From: a virus
Direction: 5' to 3' (one strand)
Virus record (IMG/VR): IMGVR_UViG_3300007276_000372
Span: 1 to 21,365 of that record
Length of the DNA: 21,365 nucleotides
Positions 7,417-11,040 of the stretch are shown in pieces. The translations under genes and the position numbers were made by a program. The notes below the pieces were generated by a model, which was given only the letters and a program-made list of their open reading frames with translations, had not been told where the DNA came from and made no database searches. How positions within the stretch are numbered: position 1 is the stretch's first letter; every line of letters starts with the position of its first letter.

Positions 7417-8215
7417 AGCTGTGAACCTCGCCCGATACGCCGAACGTCCAAAGATCAACCATGCCTTGCGCATTTGGTGGTGTGACGGACGCCCGCATCA
7501 AATAGTCAACATCACCGACAACAGCAGGACGCCAAGCCACATAAGCGGTCTTTGTCTCGAGGCTCTGAATAAGCCCGCCAGTGCCGTCTAGGTTCGCCCG
7601 CACCCAATCATATGTCAGGTTGTTCCATTGGTACGCAGCGGACAGCACAGTGCGCTTGATGCTACGTCCAAGCAATTCGCCCGTGCGCGATAGATTGCCG
7701 ACAACCTCCGTGCCTCGGTTCATGCGTGCCGGGGTATAGCCGCCATAAAATGACCGTTGCATGACGAGCGGGTTGCCGATCATCACGTTGTAAATTGTTG
7801 GCTTGGCTGTTCCCGTTCCTGTGATCCGAAACGTGGCGCTCGTCTTTGTGTCAAACAGAAATAAAACAGGCCCATTGTCAGTTGGCGTTGCGCTGTCAAT
7901 CGTGACAAAGCCTGTGTCATCGTACTGCACAGAAACCGTTTGGCCGCTTGTGAATAGATCGTCAGAACCGATTGCAATTGCAGACACGCCAGCAGAACCA
8001 CCAGTCAATGCGATTTCAATCGTCCATGTAGTTGCATTCGGCTTGTACCTATCAACCGTCAATCCGTTGATGATATTGGCGTCTGCAAATGATGCGCTGT
8101 CAACGTCGGTCGTGTTGGCGTCAACCACTGTAAACGGCAATACAACCCCATCGTGCATGATGCGCGCGTTGTTGCCGTCTGTTAGCGTATAGCCTGCTTC
8201 GATTTCTACAGTCAT
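7409..8215 (-). CDS. putative distal tail / minor tail protein, 268 aa
   Basis: The first half is Thr/Asp/Ala-rich and beta-like (VLPFTVVDANTTDVDSASF, WTIEIALTGG), resembling an Ig-like or carbohydrate-binding sandwich. The second half (RSFYGGYTPARMNRGTEVV onward) contains Trp-rich segments (YDWVRANLDGTGG, AYVAWRPA) typical of a conserved phage tail protein found directly between tape measure and Cys-rich hub genes. The ATG overlaps the tape measure stop as ATGA. Position just after the tape measure is where distal tail proteins are encoded. I do not recognise a named family with certainty. Confidence 0.7.
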   Translation of the reverse strand: MTVEIEAGYTLTDGNNARIMHDGVVLPFTVVDANTTDVDSASFADANIINGLTVDRYKPNATTWTIEIALTGGSAGVSAIAIGSDDLFTSGQTVSVQYDDTGFVTIDSATPTDNGPVLFLFDTKTSATFRITGTGTAKPTIYNVMIGNPLVMQRSFYGGYTPARMNRGTEVVGNLSRTGELLGRSIKRTVLSAAYQWNNLTYDWVRANLDGTGGLIQSLETKTAYVAWRPAVVGDVDYLMRASVTPPNAQGMVDLWTFGVSGEVHSYE

Positions 8216-10035
8216 CTGCGGCCCCTAATGTCTATCAATCTTGTACCATCTCCGCCCGCTTCATTCAATGCCTCGGCAACCTGCACCACCTGCGCGCGCG
8301 TGAACCCTTGATCGCCAATCAACGTCAGGTTAACACTTGCCCGTTGCGCTTGTTCCGCAGCAGCACCGCCGCCGCCGCCGCCGCCGCCTCCGCCTTGAGA
8401 CGCGATAACAGGTTGCCCGCCACCAGATGCAACAGCCCCTCCGCCGCCGCCGCTGGATTGCGCGCTCCGCAGTTGGCCTATCATCGCGCCCGTTTTGGCA
8501 ACAGACGCCGCAGCGAATGCAACCGCTCCGGGTGGACCAGCAACAGACATGCCTTTTTCCCAAGCAGTTATGGCCGAATTAATGCCGCTCACGACAGCCT
8601 CTGCGATTGCCGCAGCCTTGCCGATTTCAAAAAGCTTTTTATTTTCCGACTGCATAAGCGTTGAAAGATCGCCAAACATTCCACTAAAGGCGGAAAGCTT
8701 GGATTGCATCGCAGCGCGGTCAAGAGCCGCCATGTCTGCGTTATGCCTTTCCTTTATGCGTTTTTCTAAGTCGTTATATTCTTCTTCTGCGCCGATGCCA
8801 GCGTCCCTAAACGCCTGCAATTCTGCGAGTTGTTCAGCCTGCGCGTTTGCGATAATCTCGCTTTCAGTTGCGAATGCCGCCTCTAACGCCTCAAAGTCAT
8901 CGTCAGTCAGGCCAAGTGATGCGCGCTTGCTACTGCCACCTTTACCGCCTGTCCAGTCTCCAACACCACCTCCGCCACCGCCGCCACCACCGCCGGATAT
9001 ATCAAGCGAAAGCGGTGGGGTAGGCTGCACTGGGGCAAGTGGCGGCAATCCCAAAGCTGTGCGGCCCGCCGCTGTCAGATTTCCCTCATTTAAACCTTCA
9101 CCACCGCTGCCGCCTTCTCCGCCGCCCGGTGCTTGGATGTCTAGGTCTGCAAGGCCAGCGATTTGATTGGCTGTTTTTAAAAACACCTTTAGCGCCTGCA
9201 CCGCTATGCCAATGTCTTGCGCGAATGCCACGGCGCTCTCAAACGTGCTGCCCATTGCTGGGATTAGTTTGTTTGTTATGAAGTCAACAACTTCAATTAT
9301 TTCGTCCTTGTATTCAACAATCGCCGTTGTGGCCTTGGTCTTCAACGTGTTAGCAAGCGCTGCCAATTCGCGATCTAACTCAACCGCGCCCGCAATTGTT
9401 TCATCACTAAGAATGCGGCCAGTCCGCTCCGCCTCGTCGCCAAGTCGCGCCATTTCCTGACCGTTGTTTTGCAACAGCGGAATAAGGCGTGTGGCGTCAG
9501 ATGCCAGCGCCTCCATATAGAACGTCATTTCTTTTTGCGATACGCCAGCCTTTTCAAGGGACGAAACATAAAGCTGTAACGCGTCTGGCCCTGATAGCTT
9601 GGCAAACATATTAGCAGTCACGCCGATTTTTGGTGCTATGTTCTCGAAGAAGTCAGCAAGCGGACCCGCGCCCGTCGCTTGGAAGTCACCAAACTTGTCG
9701 TTAACGTCCTTCAGAATGTCGCTTAGTTTTTCCTGTTCAAACCCGACCGTGCGCGTTGCCGCTGCCATTTTCTGAAAGTCGGTTGTACTTATACCCGCCT
9801 GCGCTGATAGGTTCTTGATTTCAACGCCAGCCGCCGCAGCCTCGCTTGCCATTTTAAGAACGCTTGCGCCAATAGCAGCAACGGCGACCACAACAGCCGC
9901 GCCAGCCTTGGCGACGTTGATGGACATCTGTTTTGTCTTTTTGGAAAAGTCATCGACAGACCTTCCCGCCTTATTCATGCCTTGCTGTAATGGCTGCCCG
10001 TCAACTGATAACTTTACCTTAATGTCTTTAGTCAT
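8212..10035 (-). CDS. tail tape measure protein, 607 aa
   Basis: The N-terminus (VDGQPLQQGMNKAGRSVDDF) is the usual helical start of tape measure proteins, followed by a hydrophobic segment at about 44-62, TMP-like repeats (AQAGISTTDFQKMAAATRTV) and long helices. Extended poly-Gly linkers lie near residues 305-315, 348-360 and 528-558, separating helical blocks. The protein sets tail length and runs through the tube lumen; at 607 residues it is short, predicting a modest tail. It follows the G/GT chaperones and overlaps the T frame stop by 8 bases, the standard order in siphoviruses. The Gly runs are encoded by GGC-type triplet repeats that may vary in length. Confidence 0.9.
   Translation of the reverse strand: MTKDIKVKLSVDGQPLQQGMNKAGRSVDDFSKKTKQMSINVAKAGAAVVVAVAAIGASVLKMASEAAAAGVEIKNLSAQAGISTTDFQKMAAATRTVGFEQEKLSDILKDVNDKFGDFQATGAGPLADFFENIAPKIGVTANMFAKLSGPDALQLYVSSLEKAGVSQKEMTFYMEALASDATRLIPLLQNNGQEMARLGDEAERTGRILSDETIAGAVELDRELAALANTLKTKATTAIVEYKDEIIEVVDFITNKLIPAMGSTFESAVAFAQDIGIAVQALKVFLKTANQIAGLADLDIQAPGGGEGGSGGEGLNEGNLTAAGRTALGLPPLAPVQPTPPLSLDISGGGGGGGGGGVGDWTGGKGGSSKRASLGLTDDDFEALEAAFATESEIIANAQAEQLAELQAFRDAGIGAEEEYNDLEKRIKERHNADMAALDRAAMQSKLSAFSGMFGDLSTLMQSENKKLFEIGKAAAIAEAVVSGINSAITAWEKGMSVAGPPGAVAFAAASVAKTGAMIGQLRSAQSSGGGGGAVASGGGQPVIASQGGGGGGGGGGAAAEQAQRASVNLTLIGDQGFTRAQVVQVAEALNEAGGDGTRLIDIRGRR
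8366..8393. repeat. triplet microsatellite (CCG)n within the tape measure gene
   Basis: A near-uninterrupted run of CCG/GCC triplets on the plus strand encodes a poly-Gly linker in the minus-strand tape measure protein. Shorter copies occur at about 8437-8452, 8945-8996 and 9102-9128. The run stays in frame in triplet units, so length change by slippage would alter linker length without breaking the gene. Confidence 0.85.
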
Positions 10036-10635
10036 CTTGCGCCGCTTTCTCTTTAGCCTGACGTGCTTTTACTTCGTCATAAAGCTGCTTTAATTCTTTC
10101 GGCTTTTGAATAACGCTTTGCGGCATCATGTCCTCAACCAACCACCAAACCTGCCCCGGCGTCATTTGCCAGAACTCGAAAGCGGTTACCATTTTTCCAC
10201 CGACGACAAGTCGATGCAACATGCGAACTATTCCGCCTTCGGCTTCTTCTTCGGCGTCACCGCTTCGCTTTTTTTTTCACCAGCGGCAAGCAATACGCTC
10301 CCCAATGGGGGCGAAACGATAGCAATCAAATTGATGACAGCGGATTGAATTGCGGCAATGCCTTCTGCGCTGCCCGTGGACAATTCAGATTGCAGAGATA
10401 GATAGACATCATCGTCAGAAACAACAGCGCCAGCATAGCGCAGCGCGGCCCCGTATGCCTGTGCAAGTCGTGCTTGTGGTGGACCTTGGCGACGCATAAG
10501 AACAGTCAATGCCTGCTCGCCACTATCGCCCGCCAAAGCATCTTCAATCTTGCAAACAAGCATAAGCATTTTGTTGGCGGGGACGATGAATTCGCCCCCC
10601 CTCCAACCTAGAGTTACATCGTCAAAGCCTTGCAT
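10028..10635 (-). CDS. GT-type tail assembly chaperone fusion made by -1 frameshift, 202 aa predicted
   Basis: Slippage by -1 at the A-tract lets ribosomes leave the upstream chaperone frame after Lys122 and continue in the frame that ends at 10028. The -1 frame is open without stops from 10270 to 10031 (80 residues: KRSGDAEEEAEGG, then the T domain with FEFWQMTPGQVWWLVEDMM). This is the G/GT arrangement known from lambda and many siphoviruses, where the minor fusion protein binds the tape measure during tail assembly. Read alone, the T segment could begin at ATG 10222, but no ribosome site precedes it. Placement between tail tube and tape measure matches exactly. Translation in vivo is inferred. 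Confidence 0.75.
10228..10635 (-). CDS. tail assembly chaperone, G-type, 135 aa
   Basis: This is the in-frame product of the chaperone locus, helical in the middle (ANKMLMLVCKIEDALAG, QARLAQAYGAALRYAGA) and ending in a charged tail KKSEAVTPKKKPKAE. Its position directly after the tail tube gene and before the tape measure is that of G-type chaperones, with resemblance to gene transfer agent gp10-like proteins. The ATG lies three bases after the tail tube stop and has no strong ribosome site, suggesting coupled translation. The Lys-rich tail is encoded over the slippery A-tract. Function, keeping the tape measure soluble and recruiting tube subunits, is inferred from family and order. Confidence 0.78.
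   Translation of the reverse strand: MQGFDDVTLGWRGGEFIVPANKMLMLVCKIEDALAGDSGEQALTVLMRRQGPPQARLAQAYGAALRYAGAVVSDDDVYLSLQSELSTGSAEGIAAIQSAVINLIAIVSPPLGSVLLAAGEKKSEAVTPKKKPKAE
10269..10277 (-). other. programmed -1 frameshift slippery site (nine A)
   Basis: On the coding strand nine A follow GGTG, giving codons GAA AAA AAA AGC. The heptamer A-AAA-AAA at 10276-10270 fits the X-XXY-YYZ rule for simultaneous -1 slippage of two Lys tRNAs. The -1 frame is open directly into the T domain. I see no convincing stimulatory hairpin or internal ribosome site nearby; only a weak GCG/CGC stem follows. A nine-base homopolymer is also error-prone in sequencing. Confidence 0.75.
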
Positions 10636-10638
10636 GGA

Positions 10639-11040
10639 TTAAACCGCAGGCGTGTAGGTCCACGCTCCATCGCTTGTCAGTGAAAATTGGAACGTCTGCG
10701 CGTCTTCGTAAGCGCCAGTTTCCGAATAGCTTGCAAGGAAAAAATCACCGCTAACTGCGTCGCCATTTGGAAGTTCTACAGTAATGTCCGTCATGAATTG
10801 GCCAGTTGATGTGGTCGCCAATGCAACGTCACGAAAAACCTGATCTGTTTCAAGCCCATCGCCTGTAAACTCAACAGAACGGCCAGTCATTGTCCCACCG
10901 AGCAACGTCTGGAACCCAAGGTCCAACTGATCCTCAATATTGATAGGAGAACCGTTTACGGTCATTCCGACGTTGCGCAACCCGCCGATAGTAGTGGTTG
11001 CTTTCTTGATAAAGAATAAACGTCCTGCTGTCTTTGCCAT
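10639..11040 (-). CDS. major tail (tube) protein, 133 aa
   Basis: The sequence begins MAKTAGRLFFIKKATTT, continues with RNVGMTVNGSPINIEDQ and GRSVEFTGDGLETDQVF, and ends in FSLTSDGAWTYTPAV. This beta-rich pattern is typical of siphovirus and gene transfer agent tail tube subunits, which stack as hexameric rings round the tape measure. ATG 11040 is chosen over an upstream start at 11070 because AAGGA lies 6 bases before it. It is preceded by an 88-base gap with a promoter-like element and palindrome, suitable for strong expression of an abundant protein. The chaperone pair follows directly. Confidence 0.88.
   Translation of the reverse strand: MAKTAGRLFFIKKATTTIGGLRNVGMTVNGSPINIEDQLDLGFQTLLGGTMTGRSVEFTGDGLETDQVFRDVALATTSTGQFMTDITVELPNGDAVSGDFFLASYSETGAYEDAQTFQFSLTSDGAWTYTPAV

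Follow-up and report, generated by a model that had tools for sequence, protein, structure and literature searches.

The closest described systems for the locus reported here are the G and G-T tail chaperones of phage lambda and the tail chaperone genes of RcGTA-like elements. Tail chaperones produced by −1 frameshifting are described for lambda: its G/GT system yields G and, in smaller amounts, G-T, both of which attach to the tape measure protein, and the tail tube protein is bound by T (PMC5009743). In RcGTA-like elements, tail chaperone 1 is the product of g10 (pfam11836) and tail chaperone 2 is the product of g10.5 (PMC11409702). The locus that we compared with these systems lies in a 21,365-base virus record, the whole of which was analyzed and is referred to as the window, and which carries a siphophage structural module on its minus strand. 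Pfam and PHROG profile searches placed a neck protein, a tail terminator and a tail tube protein on the 5' side of G. The tail tube gene (upstream) and the tape measure gene (downstream) bracket both the G and the T open reading frames, which agrees with the position given to G and T by an initial annotation made from the DNA letters. The features of the locus are listed here.

10639..11040, minus strand: tail tube protein (Phage_tail_2, E 8e-9), with its start at ATG 11040 or TTG 11070
10228..10635, minus strand: G, putative tail assembly chaperone, zero-frame product of 135 aa (open reading frame, homologous loci, position)
10277..10279, minus strand: TGA stop of the −1 frame, overlapping the first A of the slippery tract (sequence)
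10269..10277, minus strand: slippery tract of nine A's (A9), with A_AAA_AAA in slip register (direct sequence; heptamer and register conserved in relatives)
10028..10276, minus strand: T segment in the −1 frame (KKKRSGDAEEEAEGGIVR...; 82 codons plus stop; translation, conserved core, PF09550 relatives)
10220..10222, minus strand: ATG 10222, rival start of T, preceded by the moderate SD-like sequence AAGGCGG (alignment; anti-SD duplex)
8212..10035, minus strand: tape measure protein of 607 aa (PHROG tape measure families, E 5e-80)

The locus shares with lambda G/G-T the placement of G and T between the tail tube and tape measure genes, a short zero-frame G, a −1 extension (T) that departs from a heptamer in the last part of G, and a T without a conserved start. 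It differs from lambda in that G and T of the window lack a Pfam or PHROG match, and in its slip site, which is A_AAA_AAA inside A9 with no visible stimulator, whereas the lambda slip site is G_GGA_AAG. The gene order is also the same as that of RcGTA (g10, Phage_TAC_11, PF11836; g10.5, Phage_TAC_6, PF09550). Given that the position and layout are like those of lambda, we infer tail chaperone roles for G and G-T, and it is very likely that this is a siphophage locus for the tail assembly chaperones G and G-T, with a −1 frameshift predicted to occur on A_AAA_AAA. The initial annotation had likewise proposed a programmed −1 frameshift joining G and T, and the sequence comparisons that follow argue for that reading as a whole.

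The coding strand around the tract reads GGT GAA AAA AAA AGC GAA, with the nine A's at 10277-10269, and the G frame runs from ATG 10635 to TAG 10230-10228. The codons GAA AAA AAA AGC had been read in the initial annotation as an A-AAA-AAA heptamer near the end of G, followed by a stop-free −1 frame through T to 10028. Both readings hold, in that the heptamer stands in slip register and the −1 frame is open for 82 codons from the tract, ending at TAA 10030-10028. Within this frame, a Phage_TAC_6-like T domain extends from about GGIVR onward and has the conserved core FW..xPG..WW. On the upstream side the T frame is closed by TGA 10279-10277, whose final base coincides with the tract's first A. 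Because of this overlap, access to the T frame is possible only through the tract itself or from a start codon that follows it. The start-type codons (ATG/GTG/TTG) ahead of the T core in the −1 frame are ATG 10222, TTG 10219 and ATG 10192, and the stretch of T between the closing TGA and ATG 10222 contains no start codon.

According to the predicted mechanism, the majority of ribosomes would translate G as far as its stop (10228), and a minority would slip back by one base with the two lysine codons of A_AAA_AAA in the P and A sites. The slipped ribosomes would continue in the −1 frame to the stop at 10028 and would produce a fusion of about 200 aa, consisting of G up to the second lysine of the tract and then KRSGDAEEEAEGGIVR... 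By analogy with lambda, the role of G would be to coat the tape measure protein, and that of the T portion in the fusion would be to bring in the tail tube protein, and neither G nor the fusion would stay in the virion.

The stop of T and the ATG of the tape measure gene overlap by 8 bases (ATGACTAA, 10035-10028), which is the most frequent arrangement among the relatives described below (14/54). Since SD pairing at the tape measure start is weak (−2.9 kcal/mol), we speculate that translation of the tape measure protein may depend on ribosomes that have finished T, which would be frameshifted ones. At the other end of the pair, ATG 11040, which has AAGGA upstream of it, is more likely than TTG 11070 to be the start of the tail tube gene. 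The C-terminal half of the tape measure protein contains several long glycine runs. Phages L006-L010 share its N-terminal part, and the genes upstream of it in these phages seem to bear no relation to G and T.

Using G and T as queries, we collected 66 different loci with both domains, 54 of which fall under 85% identity in G; a locus with T in the +1 frame and a broken G (L103) and a truncated locus (L027) were omitted. Most of the relatives come from uncultivated virus contigs, with three residing in Rhodobacterales genomes and one in an isolated phage, GJ44. The Rhodobacterales carriers, an uncultured Rhodobacteraceae bacterium, Pseudooceanicola marinus and Rhodovulum marinum, were recovered by a scan with a wider alignment, an earlier prophage scan with a three-sequence alignment having given no match. 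GJ44 was the sole isolated phage to match any of the G queries. With the N-terminus of the tape measure protein as the query, the matches were mostly phages with unrelated upstream genes, and this search was useful only for L005. From the occurrence of relatives in Rhodobacterales genomes and in phage GJ44, the host of the window is probably a marine alphaproteobacterium.

In 66 of 66 relatives, T lies in the −1 frame relative to G, and that frame is free of stops from a point ahead of the G stop onward into T. The initial annotation had looked to homologues for conservation of the heptamer and of the open −1 frame and, as evidence to the contrary, for stops between the slip site and the T domain. 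None of the 66 relatives has such a stop. Of the 54 relatives below 85% identity, 45 have a classical X_XXY_YYZ heptamer in register within the final 35 codons of G, compared with 5.6 expected, and 35 have A_AAA_AAR, compared with 1.3 expected. The expectation was obtained by shuffling the order of these 35 codons. Kin sequences were counted separately, so that the cases are not all independent; the tree shows that several are.

The classical motifs are A_AAA_AAG (29 relatives), A_AAA_AAA (6), G_GGA_AAG (4), G_GGA_AAC (3), G_GGA_AAA (2) and C_CCA_AAG (1). The commonest of these, A_AAA_AAG, ranks in E. coli with the heptamers most prone to shifting (PMC5009743; PMC4066793), and A_AAA_AAA shifts less readily than A_AAA_AAG in that species (PMC5009743). 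Two further motifs are near-canonical, G_GAA_AAG in 5 of the 54 relatives and G_GGG_GAG in 3. They include A_AAG and G_GGG, respectively, tetramers of the Z_ZZN type that are treated as E. coli frameshift motifs (PMC4066793). These two classes were left out of the statistics because they were recognized only after being seen. The relatives with only a near-canonical motif (L021, L030, L031, L039, L055, L056, L057 and L096) have the same −1 arrangement, and in one relative of the 54, L075, no slip motif was recognized. The near-canonical group includes the relatives carried by Rhodovulum marinum DSM 18063 (L031) and Pseudooceanicola marinus (L030), with the motifs G_GAA_AAG and G_GGG_GAG. Mapping the motif types on a tree built from G and T together requires at least 18 changes, and the −1 arrangement persists throughout.

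We also examined the GTA counterparts of these genes, in loci of the same bacterial family that carry the same two domains. The G protein of one GTA, L128, matches PF11836 with an E value of 1e-27. Among 29 parsed GTA loci from Rhodobacterales genomes (L126-L157), T is in the −1 frame in 20 and in the +1 frame in 9, and the T genes have a separate start codon that adjoins or overlaps the stop of G, a few bases away and often as ATGA. Just one of the 29 loci contains a slip heptamer. Thus, while the phage family has a conserved −1 slip site, the GTAs have a separate T start, a −1 or +1 frame and no slip motifs as a group. It follows from this contrast that gene order does not explain the unvarying −1 frame or the heptamers seen in the phages. 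The phages thus appear to have a lambda-type G/GT arrangement that is absent from the related GTAs.

The isolated phage among the relatives is Oceanospirillum phage vB_OliS_GJ44, in which the pair corresponds to ORF29 and the next hypothetical protein (QSM00605.1 and QSM00606.1). This is a distant homologue with A_AAA_AAG at the stop of G and a T frame that is open in −1. At L028:3998-4524 (MW560978.1 17287-17813), the end of the GJ44 G gene reads GGA AAA AAG TAG and the −1 frame is open into the next gene. The pair is annotated as two separate genes, with G named a 'gene transfer agent family protein', and the paper describing GJ44 makes no mention of frameshifting (PMC8451122). We consider the GJ44 pair a candidate for an unannotated G/GT frameshift.

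With respect to family identity, comparison of the G and T proteins of the window with Pfam and PHROGs gave nothing credible (for T, no Pfam match at E 1). Likewise, nothing credible was found for G in NCBIfam or among solved structures, and nothing was found for T among solved structures. Among the relatives of T, 6 of 11 aligned members match Phage_TAC_6 (PF09550), the best with an E value of 0.0013, and T of the window itself fails the curated cut-off of this family. T is probably remotely related to Phage_TAC_6, and we do not file it as a member. As for Phage_TAC_11 (PF11836, GTA-gp10), the G relative in GJ44 gives a weak match that is below the cut-off (E 0.0063), and there is no match for G of the window or for the other aligned members. 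No PDB entry matches an AlphaFold model of G with a mean pLDDT of 77 (best E 0.65). The best matches of this model among viral structures are unnamed proteins, and proteins named 'tail assembly chaperone' appear only at weak scores.

The initial annotation had remarked that a stimulatory element was not apparent, and we came to the same view of the window. The 65-71 nt downstream of the tract fold no better than shuffled sequences (z of +0.5 and −0.25), and SD-like pairing was not found just upstream of the tract (−0.9 kcal/mol). Downstream structure was considered as a family-wide stimulator and rejected, as the mean z is −1.2, with strong structure in some relatives and none in the window. 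The mean upstream SD-like pairing of the relatives is −5.6 kcal/mol, compared with −3.1 kcal/mol in the body of G, and is absent in the window; because the tail of G is purine-rich, we do not claim this pairing as a stimulator.

Of the other explanations for the two frames, slippage by RNA polymerase on A9 is the most probable. An mRNA with one extra A, or with two fewer, would place T in the zero frame, and bacterial polymerases slip highly efficiently on nine A or T in vivo (PMC5009743). The window and its nearest relatives, L005 and L014, form a supported A9 clade (100/98), and the lack of a visible ribosomal stimulator in the window is consistent with such a route. However, the A run is six long in 15 and seven long in 12 of the 35 A_AAA_AAR relatives, which is short for efficient polymerase slippage, and other relatives use G_GGA_AAG or G_GGA_AAC, so that what is common to the family is a ribosomal slip motif in register. 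Because 27 of the 35 A-tract relatives have only six or seven A's, ribosomal slippage is favored for the family, and it is unlikely that T is reached mainly via RNA polymerase slippage. Within the A9 clade itself, ribosomal and polymerase slippage would be inseparable by sequence. We give a small chance to the idea that this clade has a lengthened slip site at which polymerase slippage, alone or together with ribosomal slippage, sets the ratio of G to G-T with no stimulator. If true, transcriptional slippage would operate the tail chaperone switch of the A9 clade.

It is much less probable that T is a separate protein initiated at ATG 10222 and coupled to the stop of G 5 bases upstream, with the A tract being incidental. 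TAG 10228 and ATG 10222 are indeed close together, with AAGGCGG upstream of the ATG, and the anti-SD duplex is −7.7 kcal/mol at ATG 10222, compared with −2.9 kcal/mol at the start of G itself. In addition, expression of the TAC_6 protein in the GTA relatives begins at a separate start beside the G stop. Yet the window alone (1 of 52 aligned sequences) has a start codon at the position of ATG 10222, and 22 of the 53 relatives with an assigned motif have no ATG, GTG or TTG between the slip motif and the FW core of T. Independent initiation of T has no conserved start in the family, but in the window itself it may occur at ATG 10222, with its moderate SD-like sequence. Initiation at this ATG had been named in the initial annotation as the outcome that would speak against frameshifting, and these counts speak for frameshifting instead. 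Moreover, a T motif, G-[LIF]-V-[RKQ], is conserved in the −1 frame upstream of ATG 10222 (G in 38/52, L/I/F in 48/52, V/I in 50/52), where the window has GGIVR. Because this conserved motif precedes the ATG, the T domain thus appears to begin upstream of it, and the strong enrichment of slip motifs also argues against an incidental tract. Under the frameshift reading, some free T alongside the fusion is possible. Finally, we attach next to no probability to a homopolymer sequencing or assembly error in one ordinary gene, given that, although A9 is an error-prone tract, identical nine A's are present in a further contig that departs slightly from the window (L002; 5 differences over 5 kb, with the G/T pair unaffected), and the same −1 relation is found in 66 relatives with differing motifs and run lengths.

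Ribosomal −1 frameshifting on A_AAA_AAA is what a phage specialist would expect of a G/GT pair at this position, and the mild surprises are the unrecognized family, the turnover of the motif and the GTA genes that lack slip sites. The usual two-gene annotation, as in GJ44, misses the predicted fusion product. The contrast with the GTAs, where each of the two related proteins has a gene of its own and slip sites are lacking, is testable. The motif changes on the tree suggest that a slip motif can turn over many times while the frameshift is kept, and the findings as a whole would add a phage family, largely uncultivated and with no curated match for G and T, to those in which the tail chaperone frameshift is conserved.
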